Assembly: GCF_003131205.1 (NCBI RefSeq)
Contig: NZ_QFFY01000002.1
Span: forward strand, 333,016 to 397,015
From: Occallatibacter savannae
GTDB taxonomy: Bacteria > Acidobacteriota > Terriglobia > Terriglobales > Acidobacteriaceae
Direction of reading: 5' to 3'
DNA: 64,000 nt
Shown here one piece after another: positions 21,844 through 55,905 of this stretch. Within the stretch, counting starts at the first letter, position 1; the number at the start of each line of letters is the position of its first letter. The notes below the pieces were generated by a model. That model saw only the letters and a program-made list of their open reading frames with translations, searched no databases and was not told the origin of the DNA. A program made the translations under genes and the position numbers.

Positions 21844-21920
<77 letters not shown>

Positions 21921-21934
21921 AAGTTCTGATGAAT

Positions 21935-23347
21935 CTAAACGGCTTCCGGTATGAATTCGGAGGCCGTTTTTGCTTTCACAGACGATTTGGGCAAATCTTG
22001 GGCAAGGAATTCCTTATCCAGAAGTGCTCCGAGTTGCTCGGCAATTCTCACATCGTCCGCTGTTATCACATGGGTGTAGCCCATTGTGGTTTTGGGATCG
22101 ACGTGACCGAGACGTTCTTGCCTGACAGCCATCGGCGCGTGGAGGGAGTCCAGCAGAGTAGCGTTGCCATGTCGGAAGGCATGAGCCCCACCATCCAGCC
22201 CCAACTCTTTCAGAACTGGCTTCAAGGCTCTCTTCACGAAGTTATCTGGTTCGAGCCGAACTCCGCCGCCGATTCTTTTGCCGTTTTTGGTGAGCCGACC
22301 GGGTGTGAGGAATAGGGGTTGGTCTGCTGCTCGTTCCTCCACAAACGGACGCAAATGTTCTGTCAGCGACGGTGACAAGCTAAAGACACGCCGTTTCACC
22401 CGTCCGTTTCTGGCTCCTGCTTTGGGAGCCTTGAGTCGCCCAAGTTTCGTCCGTGACCGCTGCACCACGATGATGCGATGGTTCACGTCCACGTCCCCGA
22501 CATTAAGCCCGCAAATCTCGCCGCGCCGAATGCCTGTCTCAGCTACCAGCCGCCATACCGTCTTGTATGGCTGCGGTGACCGCTCGATAATTCGGCCAAT
22601 TTCCTCGATCGAGAAACAGGGTTGTTCATCCCGCTCCCATTCAGGAAGTTCAAGTCCGTCGTAGGCGGTCTCGGCCGTGTACTTCCAGACCTTAGCCTTT
22701 TCCCAAATCAAGCGAAAAGTGCCTACGCGGTTCTTGATGGTTTTTGCGCTGCAAGTCCAGCCGTTCACGACTTCCTGAAGCAGTTCACATCCAATGTCTC
22801 GGATTTGAACTGCTCCAATTGCCGACGTCCAAGCCTTGATGTCAGATTTCTCGCTTCGCTGCGTGGAATCTTCGTGGTTGACCATGACAAGCATCTTCCA
22901 TCTCTCGGCCAGTTGGCTGAACGTCGCTGTTGGACGCGCCCGGTAATTCGGGCTGTTGACGACGGCCACTCGACCGTCGAGTTCACGTTGAGCGAGGCGC
23001 TTCGTGGGAAAGTCTTTGACCGAGCCCAAAACATCACACCGATGGACTCGCTTGATTGTTCCATCCGGCAGGAGGACATCTTCCAGCCAGCGACCGACCC
23101 AAACTTTCTCCCGCTTGCCCCGCTTAAAGACTGTGCCTCTTTGATACCTTCGTCTCGCCAACGAAATTCCAGCTTTCCGTTGTTGGCTCAACGACTCTTG
23201 ACCGTATTTTATAGAGAGTGACTGGGGCTCAGAACCGTCCTTGTGTTCCAGTTCCGGCCAGAGTGACAACTGAACCGCGTCCAATTGGAACGGGGGATTT
23301 GCTGATCCCGGCTCGAGATTTCGTTCCTTTGCCTTACGGGCACGCAC
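21935..23347 (-). CDS. Tyrosine site-specific integrase
   Basis: Catalytic motifs ETGIRRGEICGLNVGDV, HAFRHGNATLL, RLGHVDPKTTMGYTH; convergent with tRNA, 14-bp gap. Confidence 0.95.
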   Translation of the reverse strand: MRARKAKERNLEPGSANPPFQLDAVQLSLWPELEHKDGSEPQSLSIKYGQESLSQQRKAGISLARRRYQRGTVFKRGKREKVWVGRWLEDVLLPDGTIKRVHRCDVLGSVKDFPTKRLAQRELDGRVAVVNSPNYRARPTATFSQLAERWKMLVMVNHEDSTQRSEKSDIKAWTSAIGAVQIRDIGCELLQEVVNGWTCSAKTIKNRVGTFRLIWEKAKVWKYTAETAYDGLELPEWERDEQPCFSIEEIGRIIERSPQPYKTVWRLVAETGIRRGEICGLNVGDVDVNHRIIVVQRSRTKLGRLKAPKAGARNGRVKRRVFSLSPSLTEHLRPFVEERAADQPLFLTPGRLTKNGKRIGGGVRLEPDNFVKRALKPVLKELGLDGGAHAFRHGNATLLDSLHAPMAVRQERLGHVDPKTTMGYTHVITADDVRIAEQLGALLDKEFLAQDLPKSSVKAKTASEFIPEAV

Positions 23348-26143: not shown

Positions 26144-26917
26144 TTGTTTGTGACATGTGACAGCGGGTGCCATGGGAAGGTCAGAAAAATGCTCAAAAGA
26201 TGCAGGGTGTGCCAGACGGAAAAATCTATTGCTGCCGGGGAGGTATGCGGTGCGTGCCGCATGGCAAAATCACGTGCTCGACAGCAGGGTGAAGATGTCA
26301 CACGAACAAGTCGCATGTTGGAAAGAGCCCAGCAGAAGAAAGAAAAAGAGGACAATGACTTCCGCGTGAATGGACTGAGAGTGCTGGGCCTCGTGAGCAA
26401 GATGAGATCACGAATGCTGCCCGAAGAAGTCACAATGATCCGAGCGATAATGGAGCAATACACGCGACCAATCGACAATGTCGCTTGGTTGAAACCGAAC
26501 GCCATAGCAAATCTCGTCGAGAGCGGCGATCTCGTGGAAGATCAGAAGTGGGACGAGGAACCTGAGATGTCGGCATTGCCTTCAATCGAAGACTTGCGGG
26601 GAACTGCACCTTGTGATTTGCGGAACGAGGTAGTGACCGCACTTTTGGCTCAAGGATTCAAGAAATCTGCGATCAACGATGCAGCGAACAAGTTGAGTTG
26701 GAGCAATGGAGAGTCTTTCGATCAGAAGCTGAGATCGATGCTGACGAGTCTGAGACCGACAGAACGACCAACGAATCAGGGGACTTCGAACAACCCCCGA
26801 TTTGTTGATTCAGGGCCAGAACAGGACTCAGAGGCAGTAGCGGCAGAGCCGACAGCGGATCCCGCAGTAACCCTGCCTCCAACAATTCCACAGCGAGTGA
26901 AGGCGGTGAGCGCATGA
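26144..26917 (+). CDS. Hypothetical protein with N-terminal Cys zinc-binding motif and RuvA-C-like helical segment
   Basis: CRVCQTEKSIAAGEVCGACRMAKSRARQQG; DLRNEVVTALLAQGFKKSAINDAANKL. Confidence 0.65.
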   Translation: MFVTCDSGCHGKVRKMLKRCRVCQTEKSIAAGEVCGACRMAKSRARQQGEDVTRTSRMLERAQQKKEKEDNDFRVNGLRVLGLVSKMRSRMLPEEVTMIRAIMEQYTRPIDNVAWLKPNAIANLVESGDLVEDQKWDEEPEMSALPSIEDLRGTAPCDLRNEVVTALLAQGFKKSAINDAANKLSWSNGESFDQKLRSMLTSLRPTERPTNQGTSNNPRFVDSGPEQDSEAVAAEPTADPAVTLPPTIPQRVKAVSA

Positions 26918-27537
26918 AGCCAACAATTTATCGTCTTGGAGACGGGGCAGAACTCCATCTCTACCCTCAATGGGTCAAGAATCCCCAGTTGAGCTTTGAG
27001 GAGGCTCTCAAGCTATCGTGGACTGATGAGATTGTCACGATGTACGCCAAGCAAAACCTCATCGAGCGACGGACTGTTAATTATGGCCTTCCGTACTCCT
27101 ACAACAAGACCGCGAAGTCTTCAGTGGACTGGGAGCCCCTTGCTCTAGAATTGAAGGAAAGTCTGGATGTCGCCTTCGGAGTCGATTTCCAGCAGTGCGC
27201 TTGCAATGAATATGGCACCCGTTCCGCGTACATCGGGCCGCATCACGACAAAGATACGGTAATCGAAGGACAAAAGCGGGAGCCCCTCTACATCGCCTCA
27301 ATTTCTCTGGGAGCCGAACGGAAGATGGTTCTAACACCCCCCGATGCCAACCTGAAGGGAGTGGCGATAACGGTGAATAGCCTGATGAACGTGCCCGGTG
27401 CGGTTGGAATAGACCTCCCTTCTGGAAGCTTGGTGCTGTTCGCGAACAGCTTCAATAGGTATTGGAAGCACTCGATCCCGAAGGATACAAGAAAGGTAGA
27501 AGGTAAGCGGATCAGTCTGACATATCGGCACTTCTGA
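26914..27537 (+). CDS. AlkB-like 2-oxoglutarate/Fe(II) dioxygenase
   Basis: ATGA overlap; CNEYGTRSAYIGPHHDKD, IASISLGAERKMVL, GSLVLFANSFNRYWKHSIPKD, GKRISLTYRHF (HxD...H...RxxxTxR). Confidence 0.9.
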   Translation: MKPTIYRLGDGAELHLYPQWVKNPQLSFEEALKLSWTDEIVTMYAKQNLIERRTVNYGLPYSYNKTAKSSVDWEPLALELKESLDVAFGVDFQQCACNEYGTRSAYIGPHHDKDTVIEGQKREPLYIASISLGAERKMVLTPPDANLKGVAITVNSLMNVPGAVGIDLPSGSLVLFANSFNRYWKHSIPKDTRKVEGKRISLTYRHF

Positions 27538-46163: not shown

Positions 46164-46509
46164 GGTTCTCCTCGATAGGCAGAGTTGTGGGCTTGCTTTC
46201 GGGGGAGGGTGAACGTGTACCACTAGGCGAAGTAGAGTGTCAACGAGAAACAGTTCTCTGTGAACAAAAAATCGTGATCCAGCTTCTGCTGAAACTATTC
46301 AGTCTGACAGCAAGTTGGGTTTACCGAGTGCTGGAGTTGTCTTGCGAAGATGCGGTGATCACGGGAGAGGAAGCCATCTGAAACGACTTGTGCTCCGCTC
46401 GAGAGGAGGAGGTATACTGCCGCAAAGATTGAGCTACGGAAGGAAAGACCGCGCCAGACTCTAGTGGCCGTTTCGGCCCGGAGCCGAGGTAGCATTCGGA
46501 GGACAGTCA

Positions 46510-46750
46510 ATGATGCAAACCATCACAACCACCATTGAACGCCAATGGTTCAGCCAGATTGTCTCGCGAGAAAAGAAGCTTGAATATCGAGAAGACAAGC
46601 CCGATTGCCGAAAGCGCCTGATCGGCATCGACGTGCCATTCCACCTGAAGTTGATCAACGGGATGCGGAAGGATCGCCGCGTCTCTCGGTCACTGTGCTG
46701 AAGATCAGGAGGAGACAAGGCAACTTCGAATTGCACTTGGTCGCGCGATG
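46510..46750 (+). pseudogene. ASCH-domain-like gene with frameshift
   Basis: TIERQWFSQIVSREKKLEYREDKPDCRKRLIGIDVPFHLKLINGM... then alternate frame VTVLKIRRRQGNFELHLV. Confidence 0.55.
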
Positions 46751-46767
46751 TGCCACCCATAGGCGCA

Positions 46768-47292
46768 TTATCCTTTTCGTCGCTTCATTCCCCTCTTGTA
46801 CCGACGTTCGAAGAATAATGTACCGGGTTCGTAGTCCTTCACGCTTCCAGCACTTATCGAGAGCCGTTTCTTCTTGGTATTGAATTGCAGCAGTGGCCCC
46901 GCTGCTCGGATTAGCAGCGACTCAATCTCCCGTTCGTGCTTCTTATCTTTGACTACATAGAATGAGAAATATTTGAGTTCAAGTTCTTGAGCTTTCTTTC
47001 GCGCCCCGAGCCTCTGAAAAATATCCCCTCGTCCGATATAACGGGCGTAGCTCATTGAATCGTGCGCGATATACACGCCCATTCGAGGAATATTCTGTTC
47101 CTTCAGGTAGCGACGAACATTCGGAAGAGCTTCAAATGGCAGTTTTTCACCCAAGGCCAAAAACAGTCGTTGCGTTAACTCGGGTCGTCCCCGACCGGGT
47201 TTTAGCTTTCCGTACCCCACAGTCCACTGCGAATCGGAGAATACATTCTTGGCCGCGATAGTTTTGACCGACTTCTTCTTGACTCGCTTCAC
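46768..47292 (-). CDS. GIY-YIG nuclease-like protein
   Basis: GVYIAHDSMSYARYIGRGDIFQRLGARKKA...HEREIESLLIRAAGPLLQFNTKKKR (GVY, YIG, R, E, N). Confidence 0.75.
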   Translation of the reverse strand: MKRVKKKSVKTIAAKNVFSDSQWTVGYGKLKPGRGRPELTQRLFLALGEKLPFEALPNVRRYLKEQNIPRMGVYIAHDSMSYARYIGRGDIFQRLGARKKAQELELKYFSFYVVKDKKHEREIESLLIRAAGPLLQFNTKKKRLSISAGSVKDYEPGTLFFERRYKRGMKRRKG

Positions 47293-47318
47293 GTCTGTCC
47301 CCTCTTGCCCGATATGAC

Positions 47319-49577
47319 ATGAACCACTTCATGGCGCGGCTCATCTTTTGCTTCTTCGCTGAAGACACTGGCATTTTCAATAACGACCTATTCACCAAGA
47401 CTGTTGAGCAGATGAGCGACAGGGACTCATCGAACACTCATGAGGTAATTCAGACACTCTTCCTTGCCATGAATACCCGAGCCGAAGACAGAGATGCAGC
47501 CAACATCCCGCGGTGGGCTGTCGGCTTTCCATATGTGAATGGCGGATTGTTCTCCGGCAATCTCGAAGTTCCCCGGTTCAGCAAAATCGCACGTTCTTAC
47601 CTACTCCACATCGGCAATCTGGATTGGCAGAAAATCAACCCGGACATCTTCGGCTCGATGATTCAGGCCATAGCTGAGGACGCTGACGAAGACGACCGGC
47701 ACCAACTTGGAATGCACTATACGAGCGTGCCGAACATCCTCAAGGTGCTCAATCCGCTCTTCCTCGATGACCTGAGAGCAAAGCTGGAGGAGGCTGGCGA
47801 CAATCCACGAATGCTCTTGAACCTGCGGAATCGCATGGCTCGAATCCGTGTGTTTGACCCGGCTTGCGGCTCAGGCAATTTCCTCGTCATTGCATACAAA
47901 GAGATGCGAGCCATAGAAGCAAAAATCAACCGGAGGCGTGGCGAACCTGAACGCCGCTCTGCAATCCCCAAGACAAATTTCCGTGGTATCGAGATTCGCG
48001 ACTTCCCCGCTGAGGTTGCACGCCTCGCACTGGTCATCGCCGAGTATCAATGTGATGTGCTCTATCGTGGACACAAATTGGCACTGGCAGAATTTCTTCC
48101 GCTCGACAAGCAGAATTGGATTACTTGCGGGAACGCGCTGCGGCTTGACTGGCTAAGCATCTGTCCCCCAACTGGGACGGGCGTGAAATTGCAATCAGAT
48201 GATCTCTTCAGTACGCCCTTAGAACAGGCGCAGATTGATTTCGAAAATGAGGGAGGTGAAACCTACATTTGCGGAAACCCGCCCTACAGAGGCAGTAAGT
48301 GGCAGACCGACGCGCAGAAAGATGACCTAGCACATGCATGGCAACTGCATGGGCAGTTGGCAAAGACAACGGACTTCGTATCAGGGTGGATTGCACGCTA
48401 TTTTGACTATGCTGATTCGGAGCCCAACTCTGTTGCGTCCTTCGTGATGACTAACAGCATCTGCCAAGGACAACAAGCTTCCGAGATTTGGCCGGTCGCG
48501 TGGCAACGCGGAATCGAGATTCAGTTCGCTCATACGTCATTCAAGTGGAGCAATCTCGCCAGTCACAATGCTGGCGTGACAGTCATTATTGTCGGGCTCG
48601 GCAAGAAGTCGTCAAAGCCTAAGAGGCTCTATAGTGATGACCTTGTTCGCGACTGCACCCTCATCGGACCGTACTTGGTACCAAACCGCAATGATGTCGT
48701 TCAGAAGTGCAACTCGCCATTGTCCGGGCAATCTCAAATGCTGTTCGGCAACATGCCCCGAGATGGGGGGCATCTGTTCTTGGATGCCGATGAGGCCAAT
48801 GAACTCCGCAAAGACGAACAGACAGATCTGTATGTACGGCGATTTGTCGGTTCAGAGGAACTCATTAATGGGCTGCAACGATATTGCTTGTGGATACCTG
48901 AAGAGAAAGCAGAAGCCGCGTCACAAAACGAGTTCATTGCTAAACGCCTAGAGTTGGTATCTGCCAACCGACTGAAATCGAACGCAGAATCGACACGGCA
49001 GTTTGCGCCGCGTCCATATAGGTTCGTGCAAATTGGAGGCGTGGCGAAAGACCATGCAATTCTGGTACCCGGTGTTAGTTCTGAGAATCGAGAATACCTG
49101 CCTTGCGACTTTTTGTCTGCTGATTACATCGCGTCCAATAAGTGCTTTGCGCTTTACGACGCCCCTGTCTGGAACATCGCGTTGATTGCCTCACGTCTTC
49201 ACTGGGTCTGGATAGCCACAGTCTGTGTACGTCTGGAGATGCGGTTTTCGTATTCCAACACACTGGGTTGGAATACATTCCCAGTTCCCGCCTTGACGGA
49301 CAAGAACAAGCGTGACCTCACGCGGTGTGCCGAAGAAATTCTCTTGGCTCGAGAGGCACACTTCCCGGCGACCATCGCTGACCTGTATGACCCGGAGAAC
49401 ATGCCCGAGAACTTACGCCACGCACATGAGCGTAATGATGAAGTGCTGGAACGCATCTATATCGGTCGCCGGTTTAAGAACGATACCGAACGGATTGAGA
49501 AGTTGTTCGAACTCTATACGAGGATGACCTCAACTGAACAACCCGCCAAAAGGGGGAGGAGTAAAGCACGCGCATGA
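47319..49577 (+). CDS. MmeI-like class I SAM-dependent DNA adenine methyltransferase lacking the N-terminal nuclease domain
   Basis: MARLIFCFFAEDTGIF helical-domain motif at the very N-terminus; FDPACGSGNFLVIAYKEMR (motif I); CGNPPYRGSKW (NPPY motif IV); C-terminal TRD-like region. Confidence 0.88.
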   Translation: MNHFMARLIFCFFAEDTGIFNNDLFTKTVEQMSDRDSSNTHEVIQTLFLAMNTRAEDRDAANIPRWAVGFPYVNGGLFSGNLEVPRFSKIARSYLLHIGNLDWQKINPDIFGSMIQAIAEDADEDDRHQLGMHYTSVPNILKVLNPLFLDDLRAKLEEAGDNPRMLLNLRNRMARIRVFDPACGSGNFLVIAYKEMRAIEAKINRRRGEPERRSAIPKTNFRGIEIRDFPAEVARLALVIAEYQCDVLYRGHKLALAEFLPLDKQNWITCGNALRLDWLSICPPTGTGVKLQSDDLFSTPLEQAQIDFENEGGETYICGNPPYRGSKWQTDAQKDDLAHAWQLHGQLAKTTDFVSGWIARYFDYADSEPNSVASFVMTNSICQGQQASEIWPVAWQRGIEIQFAHTSFKWSNLASHNAGVTVIIVGLGKKSSKPKRLYSDDLVRDCTLIGPYLVPNRNDVVQKCNSPLSGQSQMLFGNMPRDGGHLFLDADEANELRKDEQTDLYVRRFVGSEELINGLQRYCLWIPEEKAEAASQNEFIAKRLELVSANRLKSNAESTRQFAPRPYRFVQIGGVAKDHAILVPGVSSENREYLPCDFLSADYIASNKCFALYDAPVWNIALIASRLHWVWIATVCVRLEMRFSYSNTLGWNTFPVPALTDKNKRDLTRCAEEILLAREAHFPATIADLYDPENMPENLRHAHERNDEVLERIYIGRRFKNDTERIEKLFELYTRMTSTEQPAKRGRSKARA

Positions 49578-51628
49578 CGACCGAGGCGAAGACGATACCC
49601 ACCGTATCTGTTTCTTATGCTCGAAACGGCTCTTCGATGAGGGCGAATGCTCTCGGCATGAGGCCAATGCAGGAGCGCGTCTATGAGAAGCGGGGAGAGC
49701 AGTACCTGATAATCAAGTCCCCTCCAGCCTCAGGCAAGAGCCGTGCCCTCATGTTTGTCGCGCTGGATAAACTCCAGCACCAAGGCATCAAACAAGCCAT
49801 CATTGTGGTGCCGGAACGCTCCATCGGAGCGAGTTTCAATGATGAGCCGCTTTCGCAGTTCGGCTTTTGGGCGGATTGGCATGTTGAGCCCAAGTGGAAC
49901 CTGTGCAATGCCCCCGGTAGTGAAAACGGTGGCAAGGTCAAGGCTGTTGGGGCGTTTCTTGAGAGCACGGATAAGATTCTGGTCTGCACGCACGCAACCT
50001 TCCGCTTCGCTGTGGAACAGTACGGCGTCGAGAAATTTGATGACCGCCTGATAGCCGTCGATGAGTTCCATCATGTTTCCGTCAACGACGAGAACATCCT
50101 CGGCTCATATTTGGGCGAGTTCATCGCGAGGAACCGTGTCCACATCGTCGCGATGACTGGTTCATACTTCCGTGGTGATGCTGAGGCTATTCTCTCCCCG
50201 TTTGACGAGAACAAATTCGATACCGTCACGTACACCTACTATGAGCAGTTGAACGGCTACGAGTACCTAAAGCAACTCGACATGGGCTACTACTTCTACA
50301 GTGGCTCGTACGCCGACGAAATTCTGAGCGTGCTTGACACGTCCGAGAAAACAATTGTCCACATTCCCAATGTGAATTCACGGGAGAGCACGAAGGACAA
50401 AATCAAGGAAGTTGACCACATCATCGGGGCAATGGGCGAGTGGCAGGGCATCGACCCGGCGACAGGCTTTCAGCTTGTGAAGATCCCGAGCGGGAAAGTT
50501 CTGCGAATTGCCGACCTAGTAGACGATGACCCCGGCAAACGAGACCGCGTCGTGAACGCTTTAAAAGACCCCACCCAAAAGTATAACCGTGCCCACGTAG
50601 ACATCATCATCGCTCTCGGGATGGCAAAAGAAGGCTTCGACTGGATTTGGTGTGAGCACGCTTTGACGGTTGGCTATCGCTCCAGCCTGACGGAGATTGT
50701 GCAAATCATCGGGCGTGTAACCCGCGATGCCGAAGGAAAGACTCGCGCCCGGTTCACCAATTTGATAGCGGAACCCGATGCTTCGGAAGAGGCTGTTACC
50801 GAGGCCGTCAATGACACTTTGAAGGCTATCGCTGCCAGTTTGTTGATGGAACAGGTTCTTGCACCACGCTTCGAGTTTCGTCCGAAGAATCCAGAGAACA
50901 AGCCTACCCCCGGCTATTCATACGGGGAGGGCGGCTACAACGCGGACAAATGCAACATCGGCGTCAACCAACAAACGGGCGCGATTCAGATTGAAATCAA
51001 AGGGCTGGCGATGCCCCAAACGACTGAAGCCACTCGCATCTGTCGAGAAGACTTGAACGAAGTGATAGCAGCGTTTGTACAGGACAAGACGGCCATCGAG
51101 CGTGGGATGTTTGACGAAGAGCTAGTGCCGGAAGAGCTAACACAGACGCGGATGGGGAAGATTGTCAAAGAGAAGTATCCCGAACTTAACGCCGAAGACC
51201 AAGAGGCCGTTCGCCAGCACGCGATTGCCGCTCTAAACTTCACACAACAGGGGAAGCTTTATTCCGGTGGTAGCGGCGAGGAACCGAAGGCCAACACGGC
51301 ATTGATTGACGGCGTGAGATTGTTTGCGATGGATGTCCGCGAACTCGACATTGACCTGATCGACCGCATCAATCCGTTCGGTGAGGCTTACGCCATCTTG
51401 GCTAAGACCATGAATGAGGAGAGCCTGAAGCATGTGGCAGCGGCAATCTCGGCCAAGCGAACCGCCCTGACGCCGGAGGAAGCGAAGGCACTCGCAGTGC
51501 GTGCGCTGAAGTTCAAGAAGGAACACGGGCGTGTCCCCTCAGCCACATCCCAAGACCCTTGGGAGAGGAAGATGGCGGAAGGTGCTGCGGCATTCCTCCG
51601 CTTCGACAAGGAGGGTCGCTATGCCTGA
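49574..51628 (+). CDS. SF2 DEAD/DEAH-like helicase
   Basis: ATGA overlap; Walker A IKSPPASGKSRALM; DEFHH box; VAMTGSYFRG; QIIGRVTRDAEGK (motif VI). Confidence 0.9.
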   Translation: MTTEAKTIPTVSVSYARNGSSMRANALGMRPMQERVYEKRGEQYLIIKSPPASGKSRALMFVALDKLQHQGIKQAIIVVPERSIGASFNDEPLSQFGFWADWHVEPKWNLCNAPGSENGGKVKAVGAFLESTDKILVCTHATFRFAVEQYGVEKFDDRLIAVDEFHHVSVNDENILGSYLGEFIARNRVHIVAMTGSYFRGDAEAILSPFDENKFDTVTYTYYEQLNGYEYLKQLDMGYYFYSGSYADEILSVLDTSEKTIVHIPNVNSRESTKDKIKEVDHIIGAMGEWQGIDPATGFQLVKIPSGKVLRIADLVDDDPGKRDRVVNALKDPTQKYNRAHVDIIIALGMAKEGFDWIWCEHALTVGYRSSLTEIVQIIGRVTRDAEGKTRARFTNLIAEPDASEEAVTEAVNDTLKAIAASLLMEQVLAPRFEFRPKNPENKPTPGYSYGEGGYNADKCNIGVNQQTGAIQIEIKGLAMPQTTEATRICREDLNEVIAAFVQDKTAIERGMFDEELVPEELTQTRMGKIVKEKYPELNAEDQEAVRQHAIAALNFTQQGKLYSGGSGEEPKANTALIDGVRLFAMDVRELDIDLIDRINPFGEAYAILAKTMNEESLKHVAAAISAKRTALTPEEAKALAVRALKFKKEHGRVPSATSQDPWERKMAEGAAAFLRFDKEGRYA

Positions 51629-52826
51629 GGAGTTTGACCTTGATGAACTCCGCTCCGGACTATCAGAGTTTGCGGAGCCGGAGAAAGTCAGTGGTCGTTC
51701 CGCCGTCGAAGAAAGGGTTATTGCTGGTTTCGAAGAGATTCAACGCTTCTTCAGTAGCCACGGACACCTGCCACGGCACGGAGAAAACAAGGACATCTTC
51801 GAGCGGCTTTATGCGGTCAGGCTTGACCGACTGAGGGCGCAGGAGGAGTTTCGCACGCTCCTCGCTCCGTTAGACCATCAAGGATTGTTGGCTGCACCAG
51901 CAGCATCTTCCGTGGGAAAGGAAGAGCCCGACCTTGACGAACTGCGTGCCGAACTTGAAGATGCTACCGTCTCCAGCACCCTTACGGAACTTCGCCACGT
52001 TCGCAGCACTGCGGAGAAGCGTGCTGCTGAAGAGATTGCTAATCGTACGGTTTGCGAGGACTTCGAAGAATACAAGCCGATCTTCGAGAGCGTGAGGCTT
52101 GAGTTAAAGGATCGTGTGAGACAAGCCCTGCCATTGCAGAAGATGGACGAAATTAGGCTGACTGAAATTCAGCAAGGCCAATTCTTCATCGTTAACGGGC
52201 AGATTGCATACATCGCCCAAGCTGGCGAGGATTTCAAGACGCAATACGACAGGCGCGATAGTCGTCTGAGAGTCGTGTACGACAACGGTACAGAAAGCGA
52301 TTTGCTCATGCGCTCGTTTCAGCGTGCCTTACACAGAGACGAAGCGGCACGTGTCATAACGACCGTCGATAGCGGTCCGCTGTTCGCGCAAGAGCCAGCG
52401 GGAGATGACCTCGCCAGCGGCACAATCTACGTCCTGCGTAGCAAATCGGACCAGCCCGAGATTGCAGCCCATCGGGACGTTCTGCACAAAATTGGGGTTA
52501 CGGGTGGCAAGGTGGAAACCCGTATCGCCAACGCAAAGCTTGACCCCACGTACCTGTTGGCCGAAGTCGAGGTCGTAGCAACGTATGGTCTCTACAATGT
52601 GAGCCGCGTGAAGCTGGAGAATCTGATCCATCGCGTCTTTGACATCGCACAACTGGATATTGAGCTACGCGACCGTTTTGGCAACCCCGTGAAACCCCGT
52701 GAATGGTTCCTCGTGCCGCTATTTGTTATCAATGAAGCAGTTGAACGCATCAAGGATGGAACGATCACTGAATACGTCTATGACCCTTCGAGAGCGCAGT
52801 TGGTTAAACATGTGGCTCGGGCCTAG
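51621..52826 (+). CDS. GIY-YIG (T5orf172-like) nuclease with long N-terminal extension
   Basis: 8-bp overlap with helicase; GTIYVLRSKS...HKIGVTGGKVETRIANAKLDPTYL...SRVKLENLIHRVFDIAQLDI. Confidence 0.82.
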   Translation: MPEEFDLDELRSGLSEFAEPEKVSGRSAVEERVIAGFEEIQRFFSSHGHLPRHGENKDIFERLYAVRLDRLRAQEEFRTLLAPLDHQGLLAAPAASSVGKEEPDLDELRAELEDATVSSTLTELRHVRSTAEKRAAEEIANRTVCEDFEEYKPIFESVRLELKDRVRQALPLQKMDEIRLTEIQQGQFFIVNGQIAYIAQAGEDFKTQYDRRDSRLRVVYDNGTESDLLMRSFQRALHRDEAARVITTVDSGPLFAQEPAGDDLASGTIYVLRSKSDQPEIAAHRDVLHKIGVTGGKVETRIANAKLDPTYLLAEVEVVATYGLYNVSRVKLENLIHRVFDIAQLDIELRDRFGNPVKPREWFLVPLFVINEAVERIKDGTITEYVYDPSRAQLVKHVARA

Positions 52827-53220: not shown

Positions 53221-53841
53221 ATGAAGCAGTGCGCAATCTATGCGAGAGTCAGCACGTCAGACCAGCGAATCGAAAATCAGCTTCTTGATCTGCGCCAGTT
53301 TGCGGCTCAACGCGGCCTCGAAGTGGTCTGCGAATATACCGATGTCGGAATCAGCGGCTCCAAGGCTCGTCGTCCCGGTCTCGATGCGATGCTACGAGAT
53401 GCTCGGAAACGGAAGTTCACGGTTCTTATCGTCGCGGCCTTTGACCGTTTGGCAAGGAGCACAAAGCACTTCCTCGGCGTAGTAGACGAACTGGATTCTT
53501 TCGGCATCGAGTTCATCTCTCGCCGCGAGAACATTGCGACTGATGGGGCAATGGGTCGCTTGTTCATCACCCTAATCTCGTCCATCGCAGAACTGGAAGC
53601 CGACTTGATTAGGGAGCGCGTCAGGGCTGGAATCCGCAGAAGGAAGCTGGAAGGTCTCCCAGTCGGACGGCAACCTCTCGACGTTGACCATCGCTCATTG
53701 ATTGAAGACAGGTTGCGTGGAATGAGTCTGACGGACGTGGCGAAGCGGTACGATGTCAGCAGGGCTTCCGTGGTCAGGTGGGTTCGAGAGGCTCAACAGA
53801 AGACAGCCATCCATGGGTTCAAGCAGGAGGTCGCTGCATGA
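53221..53841 (+). CDS. Serine recombinase/resolvase
   Basis: CAIYARVSTSDQRIENQLLDLRQFA catalytic Ser motif; FDRLARSTKHFL; ELEADLIRERVRAGI; C-terminal HTH. Confidence 0.95.
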   Translation: MKQCAIYARVSTSDQRIENQLLDLRQFAAQRGLEVVCEYTDVGISGSKARRPGLDAMLRDARKRKFTVLIVAAFDRLARSTKHFLGVVDELDSFGIEFISRRENIATDGAMGRLFITLISSIAELEADLIRERVRAGIRRRKLEGLPVGRQPLDVDHRSLIEDRLRGMSLTDVAKRYDVSRASVVRWVREAQQKTAIHGFKQEVAA

Positions 53842-54630: not shown

Positions 54631-55905
54631 ATGGAGTTCACAACAAGTGAACTGGTGTGGCCTGTCGCTCTGGCGTTTGGGTTTGTAATCCTCGTATTCT
54701 CCGCTCAGCGCGAGAGCGCGGGCAGGATTCTTTTTCCCGCTTTGATGGCGTCTGGCATCGCTGGCTTGGTTTATGGCCGAACCGACTCTCTGAATCACAC
54801 GCAGTGGCTCGTCGCGCTTTCAGAGGCGGGCGGCTATATCTGGTTCGTCAGAATCCGTAAGCAGAGAGTGCTGATGGAGGAACGGGAACAGCAACAGCGT
54901 GAGCGCGAGGAGGAGCAAAGGCGGAACAGAGAACGTGCTCTCCGGGCGCAGGAAGAGGAACGCGAACAACAGCGCAAACTCGCTCGTACGGAGCGCCGTT
55001 TGAGCGAACGGCGAGACAAAGCGAAGCGGCAGGAACAGAAGCGAGACGTTGAAACAACGCTCCCTTCCAGAGTTCGTACTACGCGAGGGGGTCTCAAGGC
55101 CGTCGCTGGAATGGCATCTCTAAAGAAGCTTCTTCGAGAGCAGGTCATAGAGGTTTACAAAAGGCCTGACAAGCCCCGACAATACGGGCTTTCAATACCG
55201 AATGGCATTCTTCTCTACGGGCCACCGGGCTGCGGCAAGACGTTCATCGCCCGCCAACTAGCAAGCGAACTGAAGTATCACTTTTTCGAGATTTCGCCGT
55301 CCGACGTTGCTGATTCATACGTTCATGGAAGCACAATTAAAATCCGTGACATTTTTGAGCGGGCAATCAGCAAGGCACCTTCCGTGCTGCTTATCGACGA
55401 ATTCGATGCTCTTGTACCCAGTAGAGCGGCTCTCGGCGGACATCACCATAAGGCTGAGGAAGTGAACGAGTTCCTTGCTCGTATGGCGACCTGCTCTGAG
55501 AAAGGTGTGCTACTCATACTTGCCACGAATGCACCAGAGAAGATTGACCCTGCCGTCCTGCGTTCTGGCCGAATTGACAAGAAAATCTACGTCGGCGCTC
55601 CAGACCAAGTTGCACGAGAAGAAATCCTTAGACATCATTTGAGGGGTCGCTACACTGCACCCGAACTTCACCTTGAGGTAATTTCGGAAGTTCTCAAAGG
55701 ATACTCATCAGCAGACCTGAACCTGTTAGTGGACGAGTCGGCCAGACTCGCGATGAAGGCAAGTGAGCCAATTGGAGAACAACACTTGCAGTCAGCCCGA
55801 AATCTCGTCGCACCTTCCGTATCGGCACAGGATGAGGCCGCGTACGAAAGGTTCGGGGCACCAGCGGTACAGACCGAGACGCGAACAATAGGGTTTAGAG
55901 CCTGA
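54631..55905 (+). CDS. Membrane-anchored AAA+ ATPase with coiled coil (FtsH/CDC48-like core)
   Basis: N-terminal TM segments, E/R-rich coiled coil, LYGPPGCGKTFIARQLASEL (Walker A), SVLLIDEFDAL (Walker B), ATNAPEKIDPAVLRSGRIDKKI (SRH). Confidence 0.92.
   Translation: MEFTTSELVWPVALAFGFVILVFSAQRESAGRILFPALMASGIAGLVYGRTDSLNHTQWLVALSEAGGYIWFVRIRKQRVLMEEREQQQREREEEQRRNRERALRAQEEEREQQRKLARTERRLSERRDKAKRQEQKRDVETTLPSRVRTTRGGLKAVAGMASLKKLLREQVIEVYKRPDKPRQYGLSIPNGILLYGPPGCGKTFIARQLASELKYHFFEISPSDVADSYVHGSTIKIRDIFERAISKAPSVLLIDEFDALVPSRAALGGHHHKAEEVNEFLARMATCSEKGVLLILATNAPEKIDPAVLRSGRIDKKIYVGAPDQVAREEILRHHLRGRYTAPELHLEVISEVLKGYSSADLNLLVDESARLAMKASEPIGEQHLQSARNLVAPSVSAQDEAAYERFGAPAVQTETRTIGFRA

Follow-up and report, generated by a model that had tools for sequence, protein, structure and literature searches.

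A copy of the dnmA(yeeA)-yeeB-yeeC cluster with a 5'-truncated methyltransferase gene, most likely impaired, on a tRNA-Met island of Occallatibacter savannae

In Bacillus subtilis, the methyltransferase (MTase) YeeA, now named DnmA, makes GACG-m6A-G (PMC7261158). The same study places DnmA in a set of MmeI homologues that have no endonuclease motif and lie next to yeeB (helicase) and yeeC (nuclease), and cites Morgan et al. 2009 for the earlier suggestion of a Type I-like restriction-modification (RM) system, which we give as cited there. A neighbourhood survey of many species placed a helicase at +1 and a GIY-YIG family protein at +2 of dnmA homologues (PMC9973331). Deletion of yeeB or yeeC in B. 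subtilis left three phages unaffected and this copy was called a relic; the YeeB and YeeC of B. subtilis were also reported to be short of C-terminal stretches compared to those of Vibrio crassostreae (PMC9973331). In V. crassostreae, according to work cited in the same paper, deletion of dnmA or yeeB resulted in higher sensitivity to some phages.

We analysed a window of 64,000 nucleotides, the whole stretch of O. savannae DNA under study, which holds three plus-strand genes that overlap by 4 bp (MTase/helicase) and 8 bp (helicase/GIY-YIG), at the coordinates where the earlier note had placed them:

47319-49577, plus strand: DnmA/YeeA-type MmeI-family N6-adenine MTase with TRD, 5'-truncated and without MmeI_N, 752 aa (Pfam, PADLOC and alignments)

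49574-51628, plus strand: YeeB-type SF2 helicase/ATPase, 684 aa (Pfam DEAD/ResIII; PPASGKS, DEFHH, QIIGRVTR)

51621-52826, plus strand: YeeC-type GIY-YIG/T5orf172 nuclease, 401 aa from the ATG (Pfam T5orf172 and MUG113)

The Pfam matches of the MTase are MmeI_hel, MmeI_Mtase (2.4e-107), MmeI_TRD (1.6e-80) and MmeI_C, and those of the GIY-YIG protein, for which an alternative GTG start at 51531 gives a length of 431 aa, are T5orf172 (4e-11) and MUG113. The motifs by which the three proteins had been recognized are all kept in the window copy and are invariant or nearly so across 68-81 aligned sequences. Within this set, DPACGSGNF and NPPY of the MTase are invariant or nearly so in the alignment of relatives, the Walker A, DEFHH and QIIGRxTR residues of the helicase show no variation among 81 sequences, and Y270, K290-x-G292, R301 and E333 of the GIY-YIG protein show none among 79. 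Strong Shine-Dalgarno sequences are present at the starts of the helicase gene (GGGGGAGGAG) and the GIY-YIG gene (AAGGAGG), and inspection of the MTase start (ATG 47319) revealed none.

Based on domains, gene order and published papers, we assigned the operon to the B. subtilis cluster, and found it to be a copy of the widespread, already described dnmA/yeeA-yeeB-yeeC cluster. As in B. subtilis, an MmeI-like m6A MTase without an active PD-ExK site (the domain is wholly absent in the window copy) is followed in the same order and on the same strand by an SF2 helicase at +1 and a T5orf172/GIY-YIG protein at +2. Unlike B. subtilis DnmA, the window MTase also lacks the entire MmeI_N domain and so is not the full-length MTase of the cluster, and unlike B. 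subtilis YeeB and YeeC, the window helicase and GIY-YIG protein align to relatives over nearly their full length. The V. crassostreae DnmA-YeeB-YeeC proteins form a homologous three-gene set. Since identity to two intact members (L010 and L011) is high (69-72% for the MTase, 86% for the helicase and 78% for the GIY-YIG protein), the missing MmeI_N is read as damage to a cluster member and not as a ground for exclusion. The earlier note had suggested a composite RM-like system of a new type, matching none of the textbook Type I, IIL, III, BREX or DISARM layouts, while allowing that it might already be catalogued. While YeeB and YeeC have no model of their own in PADLOC v2.0.0, with weak partial matches only for the helicase, the same cluster has been described and surveyed in the literature (PMC7261158, PMC9973331) and is common across phyla; the published cluster rules out the claim of novelty, to which we assign almost no probability.

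MmeI (Type IIL, PDB 5hr4) is matched by the window MTase over its MTase, TRD and C-terminal parts, and by an intact relative over the helical spacer too. However, MmeI has an active PD-ExK nuclease of its own and works without a helicase, whereas this domain is absent in the window and apparently dead in relatives; the single-chain active PD-ExK nuclease that defines Type IIL is missing from the window MTase. Type I RM systems (HsdMSR) similarly divide methylation and recognition from translocation and cutting. The window operon differs from them in having no HsdS, with recognition and methylation in one chain, and in having a GIY-YIG rather than a PD-(D/E)XK nuclease, with helicase and nuclease in separate chains. 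None of the three proteins matches HsdS or HsdR in Pfam, NCBIfam or PADLOC (the MTase core gives weak MTase_I matches), and the combination of HsdR, HsdM and HsdS that defines Type I is not found in the operon. The window MTase scores 24 bits against BREX-1 MTaseX (cut-off of 500 bits) and has a partial DrmMI match (1.5e-26); PglZ, BrxC, DrmA and DrmB have no match among the neighbouring genes searched, and the locus is neither BREX nor DISARM in its gene content.

In one scan of genome contigs, relatives of the helicase were recovered at no fewer than 580 loci. The best 80 of these at least 580 loci have 75-86% identity to the window helicase and, by record labels, belong to Acidobacteria, many Proteobacteria, Bacillota (Cohnella, Tumebacillus), Bacteroidetes and Spartobacteria; the Bacillota relatives L079 and L080 have a YeeB 76% identical to the window helicase. 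An MTase gene lies upstream and a GIY-YIG gene downstream of the helicase in nearly all of the best 80 where the contig allows. Gene order is therefore kept among relatives of several phyla, which bears out the expectation that the triad is conserved in unrelated genomes, and the gene set, the conserved motifs and this recurrence uphold the description of the locus as an RM-like defence operon. The helicase was found in 7 of 396 genomes of the window's own phylum, and plasmid records contained relatives of the MTase (409 records) and of the GIY-YIG protein (225 records).

We place the operon in a tRNA-Met island of ~46.5 kb because it is flanked by 47-bp direct repeats with an integrase:

21844-21920: tRNA-Met, followed by the tyrosine integrase

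21874-21920, plus strand: left 47-bp att repeat, equal to the 3' end of tRNA-Met (repeat search)

21938-23347, minus strand: the island's tyrosine integrase (Pfam Phage_integrase, 1.3e-15)

53221-53841, plus strand: serine recombinase (resolvase), a mobile context 0.4 kb downstream of the operon (Pfam Resolvase, 3.8e-43)

Contig 401388-401434, about position 68373-68419 when the numbering is continued past the end of the window: right 47-bp att repeat (genome search)

No complete tRNA was found at the right att repeat.

Position 47319, previously taken as the start of the MTase gene, turns out to be an internal methionine; the gene itself has lost its 5' end. The MTase frame has 764 codons from stop to stop in the window compared to mostly 920-970 in relatives, and each of the 67 relatives for which upstream sequence exists has at least 171 further codons ahead of the window's start methionine; judged by this comparison, the MTase gene has lost its first fifth. 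In relatives, the lost 5' part encodes the MmeI_N domain (Pfam, at about 1e-32 in L010 and L011). MmeI_N has no Pfam match in the window MTase and was found nowhere in its own 6.28-Mb genome by a search that recovers B. subtilis as a control, and the window MTase aligns to the PADLOC model REase_MTase_IIG (PDLC03598) only from model position 189. Matches in blastn start abruptly, at 47314-47316 in nearly all relatives and at 47309 in two, and the truncation point lies at the boundary of MmeI_N and MmeI_hel. The features at this boundary are:

46768-47292, minus strand: orphan ORF of 174 aa, located where the lost 5' part of the MTase gene would be, with codon usage that fits a real gene

47314-47316: junction at which homology with every relative ends (blastn of window positions 46301-47400 versus relatives)

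The start codons of the MTase and of the divergent orphan ORF are 26 bp apart, and a search of this gap gave no promoter-like site on the plus strand. Two other whereabouts of the domain were considered and rejected: displacement of the N-domain to elsewhere, by the own-genome search, and a gene split in two, with its N-domain part directly 5' in a different frame. The DNA at that place shows no homology to the relatives, and its coding strand is the opposite one. An assembly artefact, with the true locus intact, would also account for the junction, which is supported by one assembly only. However, the locus sits on a 992-kb contig that also carries both att repeats at a plausible spacing, the genome is 100% complete yet without any MmeI_N, and a coding-like ORF lies right at the junction; we regard an artefact as very improbable.

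The orphan ORF has no Pfam match up to E=5, and plasmids, viral contigs and its own phylum yielded no clear relative. A GIY-YIG-like pattern (GVY...YIGRG...RL...E) can be picked out in it by eye only, and its fold model has a pLDDT of 37; as a GIY-YIG protein it is a candidate by eye, without a profile match.

The N-terminal domain was aligned between the YeeA-like family and more distant Type IIL-like proteins of the same class (L110-L120). These putative Type IIL enzymes keep the nuclease signature D-L-[FL]-W-x4-[LI][VI]EHKS or a close form, whereas the YeeA-like family has GGVLQTNNIHI where they have L[VI]EHKS, the E-x-K site being replaced. Because of this replacement, MmeI_N is, to judge from its sequence, a degenerate nuclease domain across the sampled YeeA-like family. 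With MmeI_N apparently dead in intact relatives, outsourced cutting would be a family-wide and already published property; the proposal that cutting is separated from methylation, with an SF2 helicase and a GIY-YIG nuclease supplied in trans, is thus right for the family, in which the MmeI_N nuclease site is lost. The degenerate domain is nevertheless well conserved and retained in all intact relatives examined. Its presence in every one of the 67 for which upstream sequence exists points to a probable function, which may be to dock the helicase and nuclease. Having lost its nuclease site and still been kept, it is a natural place to seek the coupling between MTase, helicase and nuclease.

For intact copies, a Type I-like mechanism appears most likely. 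The MmeI-type subunit would use its TRD to read an asymmetric site and would methylate one adenine; unmethylated DNA would lead to recruitment of the YeeB helicase/translocase, after which the YeeC GIY-YIG nuclease would cut, and the dead N-terminal nuclease domain of the MTase may have been kept for docking. The window copy has lost the N-domain together with the native start and the signals upstream of it, which would leave an impaired system that is improperly expressed or acts at most as a methyltransferase without coupled restriction.

We found no stops or frameshifts in the three window genes, and the window MTase does not depart unusually often from residues that are otherwise invariant. 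Compared with L010 and L011, dN/dS is 0.03-0.06 for the helical-MTase part (the L010-L011 comparison itself gives 0.07) and 0.07-0.08 for the helicase, like that of relatives among themselves. These observations suggest that the truncation is recent or that the short MTase is still used. The shortened MTase could accordingly be a working variant that has shed only the dead N-domain, with the three proteins still acting together as an RM-like defence; the cut is clean and at a domain boundary, an in-frame ATG stands at the junction, dN/dS is low, and every catalytic residue is kept. Some bacterial genes can start without a Shine-Dalgarno sequence. However, a domain conserved in all those relatives is the one that was shed, the new start lacks a Shine-Dalgarno sequence and the truncation is unique in the sample, and we consider a working variant unlikely. 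If it were true, the N-domain would be dispensable and so could not be the docking site of YeeB and YeeC. Impairment is judged more likely because the start is lost, a domain kept by all relatives examined is missing and another relic copy has been published as inactive. We hold with good confidence that the locus is a known dnmA(yeeA)-yeeB-yeeC copy on a tRNA-Met island, with a 5'-truncated MTase and most likely impaired; it probably does not represent the system in its usual working form. Its import is modest, as a damaged copy added to a widespread, biochemically unsolved family.

Other damaged copies were seen among the relatives, one (H34) with an IS5 transposase annotation underlying its two-piece MTase match and one (L062) with a broken MTase frame. 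In ~40 of 74 related loci, extra varied genes lie between MTase and helicase, and their families, judged by eye, differ by locus. Among relatives L010-L089, this part of the operon is a hot spot for insertions, and the window has none there. One further gene downstream of the operon matched a defence model:

54631-55905, plus strand: AAA ATPase, IetA-like (PADLOC IetA, 1.4e-32)

This gene probably encodes a lone IetA-like ATPase. The adjacent next gene encodes an Nramp transporter, not an IetS protease. Within the island there is also an AlkB-like 2OG-Fe(II) oxygenase (PF13532) at 26914-27537 on the plus strand.
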